Shown piece by piece: positions 7,825-19,168 of a stretch of DNA of 60,660 nucleotides. Positions within the stretch are counted from its first letter, which is position 1. Each line of letters opens with the position of its first letter. Made by a program: the position numbers and the translations under genes. The stretch comes from Micromonospora sp. CPCC 205371 (GTDB lineage: Bacteria; Actinomycetota; Actinomycetes; Mycobacteriales; Micromonosporaceae), in contig NZ_JAIBNX010000024.1 in assembly GCF_026130045.1 (NCBI RefSeq), positions 1-60,660 of the forward strand. Reading direction: 5' to 3'. The notes below the pieces were generated by a model. It was not told the origin of the DNA, searched no databases, and saw only the letters and a list, made by a program, of their open reading frames with translations.

Positions 7825-8814
7825 GTGCTTCGTCCCCTAGCTGTGGCGCTGGTCGTCGTCGCGTCGGTCGCCTTTGGCGGCCAGGCGCTCGCGGCGCCCA
7901 ACACCGACGATGAGGGTGGCACCAAGACGCTGCGCGCCACCCTCGAAGCCGCCGCCAAGGGCCACGTCGAGGCCCAGGCCAAGCTCGAAAACTCCAAGAA
8001 GCGCCAGCTCGAGCTGAGTGTGGAGCTGACACGCGTGGAGACCCGGCTCGCCGAGGTCAGCCTCGAGGTGAGCGCGATCGCGGCCCAGTCCTATCGGATC
8101 GGCCGGCTCACCCCCATCTCCATGCTGCTCAACAGCGCCTCGCCCGAAGACTTCCTGGAGCGCGCGGCGGCGCTGGAGCTGCTCGCCCAGCGTGACGGCG
8201 TGCAGATGCGCGAGCTCACCGAGGCCCGGGAGTCGGTGACCCGCACCAAGGCGGCCATCGACAACGAGGTGCGCGAGCAGGAGAAGCAGGTCGCCATCAT
8301 GGCGAAGAAGAAGAAAGACGCCGAACGGGCACTCGGAGCGTCCGGCGGCAACGCCACCGGCGGCTTCATCAACGCCAACTCGCCGCTCGCCAAGCCGGCG
8401 CCGAAGAACTCGGACGGCTCGTGGCCGAAGGAGTCGTGCACCGTCGACGACCCGACCACCAGCGGCTGCATCACCCCGCGCACGCTGCACGCGATGAACC
8501 AGGCCCGGGCCAACGGCTTCACCCGGTACCGGTCCTGCTACCGCGGTAGCGGCGGCGGCGAGCATCCCAAGGGCAGGGCGTGCGACTTCGCCGCCGCGCC
8601 GAACGGGTTCGAAAACGTCAACGCCACCGGCGGCGACAAGACGTATGGCGACCGGCTGGCCGCGTTCTACGTCAAGAACGCGAGCCGCCTCGGCGTCATG
8701 TACGTGATCTGGTATCGGCAGATCTGGATGCCCGGCACCGGCTGGCGCGCATACAGCGGCAGCGGCGGCCCGGCGGCCACCCATACCAACCACGTGCACC
8801 TGTCCATGCTCTGA
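7825..8814 (+). CDS. Secreted coiled-coil protein with C-terminal LAS-type metallopeptidase-like domain
   Basis: A 329-aa exported protein. The signal peptide (about 1-23) ends in ALAAP. Residues 35-170 form a long coiled coil with the RLTPISMLLNSASPEDFL segment seen in PcsB/RipA-type cell-wall proteins. The C-terminal domain holds HPKGRACDF and HTNHVHLS, the H-x6-D and HxH zinc pattern of the lysostaphin/D-Ala-D-Ala-peptidase/hedgehog fold. By family it should cleave or bind peptidoglycan peptides. It has four or more cysteines in the extracellular part (CTVDD, GCITP, SCYRG, ACDF), probably disulphide-bonded. The NlpC/P60 protein at 18227-19168 has the same N-terminal architecture. Confidence 0.8.
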   Translation: MLRPLAVALVVVASVAFGGQALAAPNTDDEGGTKTLRATLEAAAKGHVEAQAKLENSKKRQLELSVELTRVETRLAEVSLEVSAIAAQSYRIGRLTPISMLLNSASPEDFLERAAALELLAQRDGVQMRELTEARESVTRTKAAIDNEVREQEKQVAIMAKKKKDAERALGASGGNATGGFINANSPLAKPAPKNSDGSWPKESCTVDDPTTSGCITPRTLHAMNQARANGFTRYRSCYRGSGGGEHPKGRACDFAAAPNGFENVNATGGDKTYGDRLAAFYVKNASRLGVMYVIWYRQIWMPGTGWRAYSGSGGPAATHTNHVHLSML

Positions 8815-8815
8815 C

Positions 8816-8828
8816 TAGGCTCCCGTGG
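8816..8828 (+). promoter_or_regulatory. Leaderless promoter -10 box of the spermidine-synthase-like gene
   Basis: TAGGCT at 8816-8821 begins 2 nt after the preceding stop codon and is followed by 7 nt and the GTG at 8829. It decides this start over the upstream out-of-frame GTG at 8825. Confidence 0.5.
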
Positions 8829-10304
8829 GTGGAGCCGCTGCCTTCCAAGCTCGCCGCAACGCTTGTCTTCCTCGCAAGTGGCGCCGTGCTTGTCCTCGAA
8901 ACCGTCGCGCTGCGCCTCGTCGGGCCCTACATCGGGGTGACCCTGCAGGTCACCAGCTCGGTGATCGGCATGGCGCTGGGCGCGATCGCGTACGGCGCCT
9001 GGCTCGGCGGGTTCCTCGCCGACCGGTACGACCCGCGCAAGCTGCTCGCCCCGGCGCTGGTGCTCGCCGCGATCGCCACCGCCGTGACGCTGCCGATCGT
9101 CCGGTACGCCGGTGAGGTGCTGCGCGGCGAGGCGGCCGGTGGCATCCTGCTGCTCACCGCGCTGGCCGTGTTCGTGCCAGCGGGGCTGCTCTCGGCGGTC
9201 ACCCCGCTCGTGGTGAAGCTGCAGCTCGGCGACCTCGCCCGCACCGGCCGCGTGGTGGGCCGGCTGTCCAGCATCGGCACGCTGGGCGGCATCACGGCGA
9301 CCCTGGCGACGGGGTTCGTGCTGGTCGCCGCCCTCTCCACCAGCGCGATCATCGTCAGCCTGGCGGCGGCGCTGGGCCTGACCGGGGCCGGTCTCTGGCT
9401 GTACCTGCGGCGCCGCGCGCCGATCCCGGTGACCCGCACCGGTGCCGCGCTCGCCGCGCTCGGGCTGGTGGGCGCCGGACTGTCCACAGTGGCGCCCAAT
9501 CCGTGTGACATCGAGACCGCGTACCACTGCGCGACGGTCACCACCGACCCTGCCCGGGAGACCGGTCGCACGTTGATCCTCAACTCGGCCAACCACTCGT
9601 ACGTCGACCTGGCCGACCCGCGGCACCTGGAGTTCGAGTACACCCAGTGGTTCGGTGCGGTTGCCGACGTGATGGCGCCGCCGGGGCAGCGGTTGGACGC
9701 GCTGCACCTCGGCGGTGGCGGGTTCACGATGCCCCGGTACCTGACCGCCACCCGGCCCGGCACCGACAACGACGTGTACGAGATCGACGGCGGCCTGGTC
9801 GATCTCGCCCGCCGCGAGCTCGGCCTGCGCACCGGTCCCGACCTGACGGCCGTGGTCGGCGACGCCCGGGTACTGGTCACCAACCGCCCGAAGGAGAGTG
9901 CCGACCTGGTCGTTGGTGACGCCTTCGGGCACCTGGTGGTGCCCTGGCACCTGGCCACCCGCGAGATGGTCGCCGAGATCCAGCGCGTCCTGCGCCCGCA
10001 GGGCATCTATACCCAGAATGTGATCGACTATCCACCGCTCCGCTTCATCCGCGCCGAGGTGGCCACCGTGGCGGACGTGTTTCCCCATGTACTGCTCGTC
10101 GGTGAGCCCGCCGCGCTGGCCGGCGAAACGGGGGCGAACTTCGTGATCGTCGCGTCCGACGCGCCGCTGCCGCTGGACGCGCTGCGGAGTCGGGTCGGCC
10201 CCGGCATAACGGTGCTCGACGGCGACGAACTGGCCGACCTCGTCGGCAACCCGCACGTGCTCACCGACCAATTCGCGCCGGTCGATCAGCTGCTGGCGCG
10301 ATAG
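8829..10304 (+). CDS. Membrane-embedded spermidine synthase-like protein (fused-MFS/spermidine synthase family)
   Basis: A 491-aa protein whose first 225 residues form about seven transmembrane helices. A Rossmann methyltransferase/aminopropyltransferase-like domain follows, with the nucleotide-binding LHLGGGGFTMPRYL, acidic ribose-binding EIDGGLVDLAR and GDAR, and the catalytic-type VVGDAFGHLVVPWHL. Family knowledge: such fusions are annotated as spermidine synthases, but most lack biochemical proof. The domain keeps the Asp of the GDAF motif. No polyamine genes are nearby. The start at 8829 follows from the leaderless promoter. Confidence 0.8.
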   Translation: MEPLPSKLAATLVFLASGAVLVLETVALRLVGPYIGVTLQVTSSVIGMALGAIAYGAWLGGFLADRYDPRKLLAPALVLAAIATAVTLPIVRYAGEVLRGEAAGGILLLTALAVFVPAGLLSAVTPLVVKLQLGDLARTGRVVGRLSSIGTLGGITATLATGFVLVAALSTSAIIVSLAAALGLTGAGLWLYLRRRAPIPVTRTGAALAALGLVGAGLSTVAPNPCDIETAYHCATVTTDPARETGRTLILNSANHSYVDLADPRHLEFEYTQWFGAVADVMAPPGQRLDALHLGGGGFTMPRYLTATRPGTDNDVYEIDGGLVDLARRELGLRTGPDLTAVVGDARVLVTNRPKESADLVVGDAFGHLVVPWHLATREMVAEIQRVLRPQGIYTQNVIDYPPLRFIRAEVATVADVFPHVLLVGEPAALAGETGANFVIVASDAPLPLDALRSRVGPGITVLDGDELADLVGNPHVLTDQFAPVDQLLAR

Positions 10305-10360: not shown

Positions 10361-11830
10361 ATGACACTCCTTGGCGGGCGGTACCGCCTTGTGGAGCGAC
10401 TGGGCGCCGGTGGCATGTCGGTCGTGTGGCGCGGGTTCGACGAGGTGCTCGGGCGCCAGGTGGCGGTCAAGGTGCTCGACGGGGAGCTAGCGTCGGACCC
10501 GGCGTTCCGGCGCCGAATCCGGATCGAGGCGAGAGCGGCCGCACGGCTCTGCCACCCGCACATCACCAACGTGTACGACTACGGCCAGTCGGACGGCACA
10601 CCGTACGTCGTCATGGAACTCGTCGATGGTGAGCCGCTGGCCGACGTGCTCGCCCGCGACGGCGTACTGCCCTGGCAGACCGCGGTGACGATCTGCGGCG
10701 AGGTGGCGTCCGCGCTGGCGGCGGCGCACCGGCGCGGCATCGTGCACCGCGATGTGAAACCGGCCAACGTCATGCTCACCGATGCCGGTGCGAAAGTGGT
10801 CGACTTCGGGCTGTCCGCACTCATCGGCGAGAGCGACGTCGGGCCGGACGGCAACCTGCTCGGCACGCCCGCCTACCTCGCGCCGGAACGGCTCGACGGC
10901 GGCGCGGTCTCGCCGGCCGCCGACGAGTACGGCCCTGGCCTGCTCCTCTACCGGGCGCTGACCGGGAAACGCCCCTGGCACGAGGCCTCGATGACCGACA
11001 TGCTGCGCGCGCACCGGTACGCCGAGCCGATCCCGCTGCCGCCGGTGGAAGGGCTGCCGGCGGAGGTGGCGGAGTTGTGTGAGCGGTGCCTCGCCAAGGA
11101 CCCCGAGGAGCGGCCCACGAGCGCCGAGGTGGCCGCGGCGCTGGGCGGAGACATGCCCCGCCCCCGCCTCGAAGACACGGCGATCCTGCCCTTGCCGCCG
11201 GTCCCCGTGCCGGCCGAAGCGGGCGGGTTCCGCCGGCGCGCGCAGGCCGCACTCGTCGGCGCGGTGCTGATGGCCGCGACCGGCCTGCTGTGGGCGAACG
11301 CCGCCCGCTCCCCGGGCACCGGCTCGGGCGGTGGCGGGGCGGCCGCCGCGGCTACTCCTACGACTCCCAGCGCACCTGCCGTCGCTTCGGCCAGCCCAGC
11401 GCCCGCTGGTGCGGCCGCGTGCCGGGTTCGCTATGCCGTGCGGCAGGACTCCGGCAGCACGTTCCGGGCGGACGTGACCGTCACGAACGCGGGACGCGAG
11501 CCGATGGCCGGCTGGCGGTTGACGTTCGCGTTCCCGGGTGACCAGAAGGTCGCCGAGTCAGCGCAGGTGGTCCAGGCCGGACAGCGGGTGTCGGCGCGCG
11601 GCGACACCATCCCGGCGGGCGGGTCGGCGACGCTGGGGCTCGCCGGCCGGTACGGCGAGGCCAACCCGGCGCCGGTCGGGTTCGCGCTCGACGGTAAGGC
11701 GTGCGAGATGTCGGTGGCCGACCTGAGCGCACCATCGACGCCGGCCTCCGTGGCCGACGAGTCGGATAATTCCGGCAAGGGCGGTGGCAACGGCAGCGGC
11801 AAGGGCAAGGGCAAGAAGGGCAAAGGCTGA
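10361..11830 (+). CDS. Transmembrane Ser/Thr protein kinase with extracellular family-2 CBM-like domain
   Basis: A 489-aa PknB-type kinase. Residues about 5-265 form the catalytic domain: G loop RLGAGGMSVVWRG, VAIK-type Lys in VAVKVLDGE, HRDVKPAN near 128-135, DFGLSA near 147 and the activation-segment GTPAYLAPE. A single membrane helix lies at about 298-318. A Thr/Pro/Ala linker then leads to residues 351-452, which match a family-2 carbohydrate-binding module: paired Cys at its ends, NAGREPMAGWRLTF and the PAPVGFALDGKAC ending. The exposed tryptophans used by cellulose-binding members are missing, so it may sense another wall ligand. A Lys/Gly-rich tail ends the protein. GGAAGG precedes the ATG. 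Confidence 0.88.
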   Translation: MTLLGGRYRLVERLGAGGMSVVWRGFDEVLGRQVAVKVLDGELASDPAFRRRIRIEARAAARLCHPHITNVYDYGQSDGTPYVVMELVDGEPLADVLARDGVLPWQTAVTICGEVASALAAAHRRGIVHRDVKPANVMLTDAGAKVVDFGLSALIGESDVGPDGNLLGTPAYLAPERLDGGAVSPAADEYGPGLLLYRALTGKRPWHEASMTDMLRAHRYAEPIPLPPVEGLPAEVAELCERCLAKDPEERPTSAEVAAALGGDMPRPRLEDTAILPLPPVPVPAEAGGFRRRAQAALVGAVLMAATGLLWANAARSPGTGSGGGGAAAAATPTTPSAPAVASASPAPAGAAACRVRYAVRQDSGSTFRADVTVTNAGREPMAGWRLTFAFPGDQKVAESAQVVQAGQRVSARGDTIPAGGSATLGLAGRYGEANPAPVGFALDGKACEMSVADLSAPSTPASVADESDNSGKGGGNGSGKGKGKKGKG

Positions 11831-11833
11831 CCG

Positions 11834-12511
11834 CTAGGTGGCGGCCGCGAACCGCTGCACCTGCTCGGTGGTACCGGCCACGATCAGCAGGCTGCCTTGC
11901 GGTACGACGGTCTCCGGACGGGCGTACGTGAAGTCGGTGCCGCGCTCCTTGACCCCGACCACCGTCACGCCGAACTTGCTGCGCAGCGCCGCCTCGGCGA
12001 GCGTCCGACCGACCGCGTCCGCCGGCGGCCGGGTCTTCGCGATCGCGAAACCGTCGTCGAACTCGATGAAGTCCAGCATCCGGCTGGTGATGAGATGGGC
12101 GACGCGGTCGCCCATCGCCGCCTCCGGATAGATGACGTGCTGCGCGCCTACCGACTTCAGGATGCGGCCATGCTTCTCCGAGATCGCCTTCGCCCAGATC
12201 TCCCGCACACCGATCTCGGTGAGCGCGAGCACGGTGAGCAGGCTCGCCTCGATGTCGGTGCCGATGCCGACCACGACGCGCGGAAACTCGGCCAGCCCCA
12301 CCTGCCGCAGCGCCGCCTCGTCGGTGCTGTCGGCCTGCACCACGTGGGTGAGCGCGTCTGCCCAGTGCTGCACGATCTTGGCGTCTTCGTCGACGCCGAG
12401 CACCTCGTGCCCCATCCGCGCGAGCGATAGAGCCACCTGCCCGCCGAACCTGCCCAGACCGATCACGGCGACGTTCTCGTCCGCCGTTGGCGCCTTCGCG
12501 TTGCTACCCAA
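11834..12511 (-). CDS. TrkA/KtrA-type potassium channel regulatory subunit (RCK)
   Basis: A 225-aa cytosolic gating subunit. The N-terminal RCK_N domain has the dinucleotide motif VIGLGRFGGQVA near residue 15 and the acidic GVDED at the end of beta2. The C-terminal RCK_C domain spans about residues 140-225 (FAIAKTRPPADAVGRTL to LLIVAGTTEQV). By family it binds NAD(H)/ATP or c-di-AMP and gates the membrane subunit encoded directly upstream. The TTG start overlaps the stop of that gene by 8 nt, so the two are translationally coupled; a start slightly downstream is possible. Confidence 0.9.
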   Translation of the reverse strand: MGSNAKAPTADENVAVIGLGRFGGQVALSLARMGHEVLGVDEDAKIVQHWADALTHVVQADSTDEAALRQVGLAEFPRVVVGIGTDIEASLLTVLALTEIGVREIWAKAISEKHGRILKSVGAQHVIYPEAAMGDRVAHLITSRMLDFIEFDDGFAIAKTRPPADAVGRTLAEAALRSKFGVTVVGVKERGTDFTYARPETVVPQGSLLIVAGTTEQVQRFAAAT

Positions 12512-13838
12512 CGATTGGCCTCTCCTCCGGGTATCGGTATAGCCGGCGCCGGGTGCCCAAGGCTAGCGCCGATGCGACCGTGATGGTGCCCACCCGGCCA
12601 ACAAACATCAGGATGACCAGGGTGAGCTGAGCGTTTGACGGCAGGGTGGCCGTGATGTTCATGGATAAGCCGACCGTCGCGAAGGCGGAGGCGCTCTCGA
12701 AGAGGGCCTGGTCGAATCGCAGCCCGTTCGAGGAGGCGATCAACGCCAGCGTGCCGGCCGCCACGACCGCCACGCCGAGTAGCGCCACGGTGAGTGCCTG
12801 CCGCTGTGCGCTCTCCGTGATGCGGCGGCGCCCGACGATCACATCGTCTTCGCCCTTGACCTCTGACCAGATCACGTACGCCAGCAGGAAAAATGTGGTC
12901 ACCTTGATGCCGCCCGCCGTGCCGGCACTGCCACCACCGATGAACATCAGCGAGGTGGTGACCGCGATGGTCTCCAGTTCCGCGGTGGCATAGTCGATGG
13001 TCTGGAAGCCGGCGGTGCGCGGCATCACTGACTGCACGAACGCGTTGAGCAGCTTTTCCGGGATGCCCATGGGTCCGAGCGTCGCGGGATTCGCCCACTC
13101 GTACCCGAGTACGGCCGCGAAGCCCAAGACCAGCAGGATGCCGGTGCCGATCACGGTGATCCGGGTGTGTGTGCTCCAAGCCGCCGGCCTTCGGTACTCC
13201 CGGAACAGTTCGAACAGCACCGGGAACCCGATTCCACCCGTGATGACGGCCAGGCAGATCGGCACGAGCATCCAGGCGTCCGACCGGAATCCGATCAGGT
13301 TGTCGGAGTACAGCGCGAAACCGGCATTGTTGAACGCGGACACCGCGTGAAAGCTCCCGTGCCATGCGGCTCGGCCGATCGGATAGTCGTACCCGATGGC
13401 GAACCGTGCGGTGAGGATGGTCGCGACGAGGGCCTCGACGGCCAGCATGGTGATGGCCACCCGGCCGAGCACCGCGCGGACGTCGCCCAGCGCGAGCGTC
13501 CTCGTCTCGGCCTGCGCGATCAACCGGTTGCGCAGACCGAGTCGCCGGGAGACCAGCACGCCGAGCAGCGTCGCCAGCGTCATGATTCCGAAGCCGCCGA
13601 TTTGGATCATCGCCATGATCGTGGCCTGACCGAAGGGCGACCAGTATGTCGGCGTATCCACCGTGATCAGGCCCGTGACGCAGGTGGCTGAGGTAGCGGT
13701 GAACAGCGCGGTGACGAACGGCGCGTGCCCCTCGCCGGCGCGGGAGACCGGCAACATCAGCACGACAGTGCCGACCGCGATCGCACAGACGAACGCGAAC
13801 GGCACTATCCGGGCGGGGTGTTGCAGGGTCCTGCGCAT
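12504..13838 (-). CDS. TrkH/KtrB-type potassium uptake membrane subunit
   Basis: A 444-aa integral membrane protein with the four membrane-pore-membrane repeats of the Trk/Ktr/HKT superfamily. Selectivity-loop motifs are visible in order: SATCVTGL, SAFNNAGF, MPRTAGFQTIDY and SAFATVGLS, each with the filter Gly. It moves K+ (with Na+ or alone) across the cytoplasmic membrane together with the RCK subunit that follows. The ATG at 13838 is preferred over upstream in-frame codons because the preceding residues do not look like a TrkH N-terminus and TAAGAC lies 7 nt upstream, a possible leaderless -10. Confidence 0.9.
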   Translation of the reverse strand: MRRTLQHPARIVPFAFVCAIAVGTVVLMLPVSRAGEGHAPFVTALFTATSATCVTGLITVDTPTYWSPFGQATIMAMIQIGGFGIMTLATLLGVLVSRRLGLRNRLIAQAETRTLALGDVRAVLGRVAITMLAVEALVATILTARFAIGYDYPIGRAAWHGSFHAVSAFNNAGFALYSDNLIGFRSDAWMLVPICLAVITGGIGFPVLFELFREYRRPAAWSTHTRITVIGTGILLVLGFAAVLGYEWANPATLGPMGIPEKLLNAFVQSVMPRTAGFQTIDYATAELETIAVTTSLMFIGGGSAGTAGGIKVTTFFLLAYVIWSEVKGEDDVIVGRRRITESAQRQALTVALLGVAVVAAGTLALIASSNGLRFDQALFESASAFATVGLSMNITATLPSNAQLTLVILMFVGRVGTITVASALALGTRRRLYRYPEERPIVG

Positions 13839-13948
13839 CCCGCCTGTCTTACCACGGGTGATCAAACCGCAGTTCACCCGGTGGACAGGTGGCGGTCGCC
13901 CGGGACGGTTTGACTCCGTCCGAGCGTCCATATCGCGAGGAGAGCATC

Positions 13949-18226: not shown

Positions 18227-19168
18227 CTAACCCGGCCTGCCGTAACCGTGGATCGGCTGGTAGTCGACGTCGTCGACGCGCACCGGCTCGCCGTGCTGCG
18301 GGGCGTGGATCATCTTGCCGCCGCCCACGTACATCCCCACGTGATGGATGCTGCGGTAGTAGAAGACCAGGTCGCCGGGCTTCAACTCGTCGCGGCTGAC
18401 CCTGTTGACCGCGCGCCACTGGCGGCGGGCGTTGTGCGGCAGGGGTACGCCGGCCCTCGCCCAGGCCGCTGAGGTGAGGCCCGAGCAGTCGTACGAGTTG
18501 GGGCCGTCGCTGCCAAACCGGTACTGCTTGCCGAGCTGGGCGTACGCGAACCGCACCGCCGCGCCCGCCCGGCCCGGGGAGAACGTCGGCTTGAAACCCT
18601 TGATCGTGGGGCGCGGCTTGAAACCGGTCTGCTCGCGCAACCGCTCCAGCCGAGCGATGTTCTGCTCGATCTGCTGCTTCTTCGTGGCGAGCGTGAGCTC
18701 CTGAGAGGCCTGCTGACTGGCGGCCGCGTCGAGGGAGCGGCGAGCCGCCTCGACCCGCTCACGAGCCGCACTGAGGCTGTCGATCATCCGCTTCTGCTCG
18801 CTCGCCAGCCGGTCGAGCACGAGTAGCCGGTCGGCGAAGTCCGACGCGGACTCGGCCGAGATCACCGCGAGGGCCGTGCCGACGCCGCTCGACCGGTACG
18901 CCGCTGTGGCGATCACGCCCACGCGGGCCCGCCGTGCGGCCAACTGCCGCTCCAGCGGCCGGATCTCCTCGTTGAGGTCGGCGATCTGGCGGCGGGTGGT
19001 GCGCAGGTTGTCGCGGACCTCGTTGTAGTCCTCGATCACCTTCTCCAGGTGTTCGCCGGCCGCGGTGATCTCGTCACCGACGGGCGTGGCGTGTACCGGG
19101 GCCGGGAGCAGCACGATCACCAAGGCGGCGAGGAGGGCGGTCGTCGGCGTGGAGATAGATTGCGGCAC
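18227..19168 (-). CDS. Secreted NlpC/P60 (C40) peptidoglycan endopeptidase, RipA-like
   Basis: A 313-aa exported cell-wall hydrolase. The signal peptide (1-28, ending PVHA) precedes a coiled-coil domain (about 30-175) that in RipA/PcsB-type enzymes regulates or localises activity. The C-terminal NlpC/P60 domain (about 195-313) has catalytic Cys in NSYDCSGLTSAAW, His in HHVGMYVGGG and the third polar residue His in MIHAPQHG. It is expected to cleave the D-Glu to meso-Dap peptide bond. The GTG start is divergent from the HLHP gene. The 3' ends of this gene and the RecQ gene lie 8 bp apart, convergent. Confidence 0.92.
   Translation of the reverse strand: MPQSISTPTTALLAALVIVLLPAPVHATPVGDEITAAGEHLEKVIEDYNEVRDNLRTTRRQIADLNEEIRPLERQLAARRARVGVIATAAYRSSGVGTALAVISAESASDFADRLLVLDRLASEQKRMIDSLSAARERVEAARRSLDAAASQQASQELTLATKKQQIEQNIARLERLREQTGFKPRPTIKGFKPTFSPGRAGAAVRFAYAQLGKQYRFGSDGPNSYDCSGLTSAAWARAGVPLPHNARRQWRAVNRVSRDELKPGDLVFYYRSIHHVGMYVGGGKMIHAPQHGEPVRVDDVDYQPIHGYGRPG

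Follow-up and report, generated by a model that had tools for sequence, protein, structure and literature searches.

The protein described here shares features with several known systems and departs from each of them. Its ectodomain is closest to the family 2 carbohydrate-binding module (CBM2) of Cex from Cellulomonas fimi (1EXG/6QFS), with which it shares predicted fold, full-length homology, about 39% identity, a Cys pair and a GW core, but it lacks W17, W54 and W72, has two shorter loops, is highly charged and is carried by a receptor kinase, not an enzyme. These three Cex residues we take to be the exposed tryptophans of the planar cellulose-binding face. PASTA kinases (PknB, PrkC, Stk1) likewise combine a cytoplasmic Hanks kinase, a single span and a C-terminal domain outside the cell, whereas the present protein has no match (Pfam, E 0.001) to the PASTA repeats that a PASTA-type PknB carries outside; its kinase domain scores 270.9 bits against NF033483, below that model's cut-off of 450. 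Elsewhere in the host genome lies a 656-aa frame in which four PASTA matches were found.

Two further comparisons come from signalling proteins whose outside domains are of other types. RsgI of Clostridium thermocellum, with its CBM3 and CBM42 sensors, appears in passages of PMC12203970 as a signalling protein that spans the membrane once and carries a carbohydrate-binding-type domain outside; there it signals by anti-sigma release and proteolysis, and the CBM3 of RsgI2 recognises cellulose, whereas our protein is a kinase in which a Pfam scan found no anti-sigma family. PknD of Mycobacterium tuberculosis, as portrayed in a portion of PMC6213207, is a Hanks kinase with a non-PASTA, beta-rich ectodomain, in its case a beta-propeller sensor in place of a CBM2 sandwich. 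A full-text literature search, with most subscription journals outside its reach, found no paper on a CBM2-bearing Ser/Thr kinase; the parts of PMC12757957 that treat CBM2 and PknB do so in separate sections. Pfam CBM_2 matches all 28 ectodomains of our profile A1 at E <= 0.01, so automatic annotation can pick up the architecture.

A Hanks-type kinase with a CBM2-like ectodomain

The gene (10361..11830, forward strand, as are all features below unless stated) encodes 489 aa and lies in the window, the 60,660-nucleotide stretch of Micromonospora sp. CPCC 205371 that was analysed. Its product was originally predicted to be a Ser/Thr kinase with a CBM2-like outside part, and Pfam Pkinase and CBM_2 matches, both far above cut-off, bear this out. 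The kinase domain spans residues 8-257 (10382..11131; PF00069, 4.1e-47), and the catalytic motifs VAVK, HRDVKPAN, DFG and APE, read from the translation, are all intact, as in Hanks-type Ser/Thr kinases; the Pfam scan of the whole protein returned kinase families, APH and CBM_2. In the catalytic loop of some relatives (L061-L063 and L065-L070) HRDVTP replaces HRDVKP; the window kinase keeps the Lys.

A hydrophobic stretch at about residues 296-314 (11246..11302), read from the sequence, is the presumed membrane span, and the FRRRAQ just before it reads as positive-inside. It is followed by a linker (residues 315-353; 11303..11419) that is rich in Gly/Ala and then in Thr/Pro/Ser/Ala. From the hydrophobic stretch after the arginines and the Thr/Pro/Ser/Ala-rich linker we infer that the CBM2 domain should lie outside the cell. 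Sections of PMC12757957 report mannosylation in actinobacteria both of Thr/Pro linkers adjoining CBM2 and of PASTA kinases, and by analogy the linker of the window kinase may be mannosylated too. Behind the ectodomain the protein ends in a C-terminal tail (11705..11827) whose end is rich in Gly, Lys and Ser (..SGKGGGNGSGKGKGKKGKG); SGKGKG-like tails also occur in several relatives.

The CBM2-like ectodomain comprises residues 354-448 (11420..11704). The interval first proposed for it, 11413-11715, needed correction, since it starts out of frame and gives stops when translated directly. Within the domain, the features first described by eye are all there: the Cys pair at the ends (C354, C448), the GW core (W385, equivalent to Cex W38), PAGGSATLGLAG and NPAPVGFALDGKAC. 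In the scan of the whole protein Pfam CBM_2 (PF00553) matches over its full length (profile 1-101) at 1.5e-15 and 57.8 bits, against a curated cut-off of 24, and the same ectodomain scores 61.5 bits in the genome-wide CBM_2 search. A PDB sequence search matched it to the Cex CBM2 chain 1exg (7e-16, about 39% identity), and the three distinct sequences retrieved at E <= 0.001 (1exg, 6qfs and 3ndy) are all CBM2 domains. An AlphaFold model built from 15 sequences is all-beta, with a mean pLDDT of 91 and a pTM of 0.83; CBM2 chains rank first when it is searched with Foldseek (6qfs_A, E 2.7e-9), and VIA-align superposes it on 6QFS, the Cex CBM2, with Z 15.4 and 1.5 A over 98 residues. The ectodomain is thus predicted to descend from CBM2 and to fold as a CBM2-type beta sandwich. 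Neither a missing profile match nor a different fold, the outcomes that the original prediction had named as counting against it, was found.

Loss of the aromatic face among related kinases

Why would a kinase carry a cellulose-binding fold without its binding face? In the window protein the core Trp is retained (Cex W38 = W385), and the three positions of the face were originally said to be non-aromatic. None of them is indeed aromatic, but two of the three have gone through shortened loops and not by substitution. Opposite Cex W17 stands Asp363 in the pairwise alignment and Ser364 in multiple alignments, within D363-S364-G365 (11447..11455), part of a family motif D-[S/T/D]-G supported by alignment and conservation. 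In both kinds of alignment W54 falls in a two-residue deletion with its junction at E399-S400 (11555..11560) and W72 in a four-residue deletion with its approximate junction at D415-T416 (11603..11608), the latter gap being set one residue earlier in the pairwise alignment. The planar three-aromatic face of a cellulose-binding module is accordingly absent (Ser/Asp, deletion, deletion), and the Pfam scan found no glycoside hydrolase in the protein of the kind to which such modules are attached.

The window protein is not one decayed copy; the loss is common to most related kinases. Our set of 76 distinct proteins, each combining a kinase with a CBM2-like domain, was assembled from sequences similar either to the window protein or to profile A1, whose ectodomains are mostly Trp-less. 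In this selection, biased to that extent, W17 is present in 2, W54 in 5 and an aromatic residue at position 72 in 2. The corresponding figures for the other CBM2 places of the host genome, where the profile search found 71 CBM_2 places in all, are 61, 65 and 62 of 70; some of these comparison domains are truncated and have gaps where the aromatics were scored. All three aromatics are missing from 71 of the 76 kinase-fused domains. The five with at least one are L049 (WWW) and L096 (WWY), which keep the complete face, and L185, L210 and L071, which have W54 only. One further locus from the same genus (L037; genome G003, C1:8192408-8193717) has kinase and ectodomain in different reading frames, and so would be a broken gene or a sequence error; it was omitted from the 76 and from the trees described below.

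Since a Trp-poor profile had helped to find these kinases, we also ran a census from all 87 CBM_2 places of eight genomes, whose loci gave 85 distinct domains after merging; the genomes were picked for known kinases of CBM2 type and, in seven of the eight, for few profile matches. Aromatic residues occupy positions 17, 54 and 72 in 0, 4 and 1 of the 24 kinase-fused domains, 17 of which were already among the 76, so that the census is not fully independent. The same positions are aromatic in 47, 52 and 47 of 61 non-kinase domains, a class defined by the lack of a kinase in the fetched stretch (1.5 to 2.6 kb upstream, or shorter where the contig ended) and possibly including a few misfiled cases. 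Fisher tests of kinase against non-kinase domains, which ignore relatedness, give p values of 1e-11, 4e-9 and 3e-10 for positions 17, 54 and 72. Five of the seven new census kinases have none of the three aromatics; the others are L325 (L-W-Y) and L352 (W54 only). At most one of the three is present in 11 of the 61 non-kinase domains, so the loss shows strong enrichment in kinases but occurs outside them as well. Of the six CBM_2 places in genome G076, three belong to CBM2-type kinases, and the number of such kinases therefore need not track the number of cellulase-type CBM2 domains.

Trp at Cex position 58, present in 35 of the 76 kinases, was considered as a displaced binding aromatic and set aside: the other common residues there, L and V, are hydrophobic in kinases and enzymes alike, and Trp58 is thus probably a core residue. 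Several ectodomains (L065-L068 and L070) carry Trp near Cex 14 and 41 together (for example AVWSDD and KLWFLMPGDQ), perhaps another aromatic patch. Outside the kinases, three frames of the host genome (L257:1112-2500, L261:1188-2264 and L264:1063-1806), judged by eye to be membrane-anchored, hold weak CBM2-like domains from which most binding aromatics seem absent, and they suggest that co-option of CBM2 may extend beyond kinases. A secreted protein of genome G063 (L353:142-2484) ends in a Trp-less CBM2-like domain; by eye we presume it to be a haem peroxidase.

The ectodomain is under purifying selection in most of the pairs tested. Among 15 chosen pairs of relatives, which share rows, the ectodomain has a dN/dS under 1 in 14 by the simple NG86 method, and in 12 a lower value than the linker beside it, the exceptions to the latter being L066/L067, L068/L070 and L192/L194. 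Constraint is weak or absent in L066/L067 (1.16) and L043/L045 (0.83), and the pair that includes the window's own kinase (L031/L032) gives 0.57, which leaves constraint on the window copy less clear than in some relatives. The surface has also changed in charge, the median K+R/D+E being 10/9 in the 71 Trp-less kinase domains versus 3/1 in 70 other domains. In those 71 domains Asp stands at Cex 16 in 92% and Gly at 18 in 82%, flanking the lost W17, Q60 is kept in 97% and Y90 in 94%, and the two end cysteines in 100% and 97%. D16, G18, Q48, Q60 and Y90 are more conserved in kinases than in enzymes, whereas many strongly conserved kinase columns (the Cys pair, W38, N29 and P97) are also common in enzymes. 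The rise in charge and the conserved D-[S/T/D]-G would fit a new interaction surface; the family-specific positions are few, and some may be conserved for structural reasons.

Distribution, kinase history and gene neighbourhood

Profile matches were found in 108 of 121 genomes of the family, a figure that includes ordinary CBM2 domains, and in 57 of 345 genomes drawn from the class. The latter search scored no more than 14 candidates per genome and gave loci for few, and it may thus overlook rarer fusions; in the 28 new loci inspected, a kinase lay in the same frame in 0 of 27 outside the family and in the one inside it. Kinase fusions do exist outside the family, as the full-face L096 from Actinomadura demonstrates. 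A search of 296 genomes with the L096 protein gave three matches at 1e-60, whose alignments all fall between residues 2 and 234 of its 442, in the kinase part. No plasmid record covered 80% of the window kinase; the ectodomain matched six, three annotated as cellulose-binding or glycoside hydrolase and three without a listed gene.

Two kinase-domain trees, both with long branches flagged, bear on how the face was lost. The first has 151 rows, after five CBM2-type kinases whose kinase alignment was short had been dropped and L096 restored; in it L096 and L049, with their full face, branch outside the Trp-less kinases, and one change between full face and not is enough, with modest support. The second, with 99 rows (the CBM2-type kinases of the first, seven new ones and 20 of 79 domain-less kinases chosen by hand), needs three changes for two or more aromatics and five for any aromatic. 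With change counts that differ between the trees and modest support, we set aside a single loss on one branch. A stepwise route from full face through W54 only to none is attractive and unproven. Kinases related in the same trees carry quite different ectodomains, or none recognised. Among paralogous kinases (L046, L051, L053-L056 and others) the outside domains are unrelated, and several close with a short Cys segment (such as VRMKIRC..PTWVNSPD).

Upstream of the kinase lies a conserved neighbour, a gene for a fused MFS/spermidine-synthase-like protein (8580..10304; NCBIfam MFS_SpdSyn, 4.8e-87), whose stop codon precedes the kinase start by 56 bases, and the two are possibly co-transcribed. 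Another conserved neighbour (7825..8814) encodes a secreted coiled-coil protein that is weakly RipC-like (NCBIfam RipC, E 0.001; 18.5 bits against a cut-off of 425) and had no match in the Pfam scan. In five sequences of this protein H247, D254, H323 and H325 are invariant, within the motifs HPKGRACD and HTNHVH, a pattern that we take to resemble LAS/M15-type peptidases. We did not retain it as a wall enzyme: its structure prediction was poor (pLDDT 51), and among PDB sequences it matched a LysM domain-containing protein best (6.5e-6). On the reverse strand, frequent neighbours are a TrkA-type K+ uptake regulator convergent with the kinase (11834..12511; Pfam TrkA_N/TrkA_C) and a TrkH-type cation transporter (12504..13931; Pfam TrkH).

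The order RipC-like gene, spermidine-synthase-like gene and, directly, kinase recurs in 12 of 28 compared loci, which represent 11 genomes because L061 and L146 are on the same contig, and TrkA and TrkH follow on the other side in opposite orientation in 10 of these 11. The spermidine-synthase-like neighbour is missing at the remaining 16 loci, one of which (L150) keeps the RipC-like gene and another (L154) has a kinase without a CBM2-like domain. Conserved synteny is limited to one subgroup. A histidine kinase, an inositol-phosphatase-like gene and a GDPD are often nearby, and in the window a neighbour at 18227-19168 is an NlpC/P60 protein by Pfam. No glycoside hydrolase family was matched among nine neighbouring proteins scanned with Pfam, two of which matched no family at all.

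What the ectodomain may sense

The original prediction read the domain as a repurposed sensor for another polysaccharide or a wall component. Repurposing, probably to sense or contact a target that is not cellulose, draws support from the CBM2 ancestry and fold, the loss of the face, mostly purifying selection, the switch to a charged surface and a set of conserved neighbours other than cellulases. The proposed class of ligand would be plausible. Our own model, put forward tentatively and with not quite an even chance of being right, is a single-span receptor kinase that has co-opted a CBM2 fold outside the cell, binds a ligand of its own envelope and changes activity on clustering. A cytoplasmic PknB-like kinase would have been joined through a membrane helix and flexible linker to a CBM2 domain whose beta sandwich and Cys pair at the ends persisted. 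Substitution and shorter loops would have removed the flat strip of aromatics, while the domain's surface became charged, with a conserved D-[S/T/D]-G in place of W17. The ligand bound by this surface would sit within the envelope of the cell itself or close to it, perhaps a wall polymer, a matrix polysaccharide or an envelope protein, and binding would cluster or dimerise the kinase and alter its activity. We propose clustering by analogy with PASTA kinases, in which, according to a portion of PMC6213207, ligand binding outside promotes dimerisation and activation. The lost face, the charge and the neighbours together lead us to infer that an envelope or matrix ligand is more likely than cellulose.

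The same domain could be a non-binding structural module, a wall spacer or constitutive dimerisation unit of which only the fold is kept, the tryptophans having gone because nothing selects for binding. The many strongly conserved columns shared with enzymes (the Cys pair, W38, N29 and P97) and the related kinases with different or no recognisable ectodomains are what such a module would lead one to expect, but the strong rise in charge and the higher conservation of D16, G18, Q48, Q60 and Y90 than in enzymes tell against it, and we judge it unlikely. That the face has gone and loops have shortened, with weak constraint in some pairs, might even suggest a decaying, functionless relic of a former cellulose-sensing kinase; with domain dN/dS below 1 in 14 of 15 pairs and the end cysteines kept in 100% and 97% of the 71 Trp-less kinases, this is scarcely credible.

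An improbable reading is that the ectodomain still senses a plant polysaccharide (cellulose, xylan or oligosaccharides), using residues other than the lost aromatics, and that it controls cellulase genes in the manner of CBM-bearing RsgI. It gains from the 71 CBM_2 places of the host genome, from the complete face of L049 and L096 and from the CBM3-type sensor of RsgI2, which in the passages of PMC12203970 recognises cellulose. Set against these are the loss of all three aromatics in 71 of 76 kinases, the persistence of the kinases where CBM_2 domains are few, as in G076 (three of six places), and the nine scanned neighbours with no glycoside hydrolase (two without a Pfam match).

If the model of an envelope-sensing receptor kinase is right, it would add to the receptor kinases a new type of sensor domain with a well-understood ancestral function. 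To our knowledge, ligands are known for few bacterial receptor kinases. With the ancestral function understood and natural intermediates at hand, the shift from substrate anchoring to signalling would be testable by mutation. The automatic label "cellulose-binding" on such kinases is probably misleading. It is possible, if somewhat doubtful, that Micromonosporaceae have in these proteins a distinct class of receptor kinases, parallel to the PASTA kinases, in which a cellulose-binding module has come to sense the envelope or extracellular matrix of the cell itself, and the coexistence of full-face, W54-only and face-less kinases may document that conversion.
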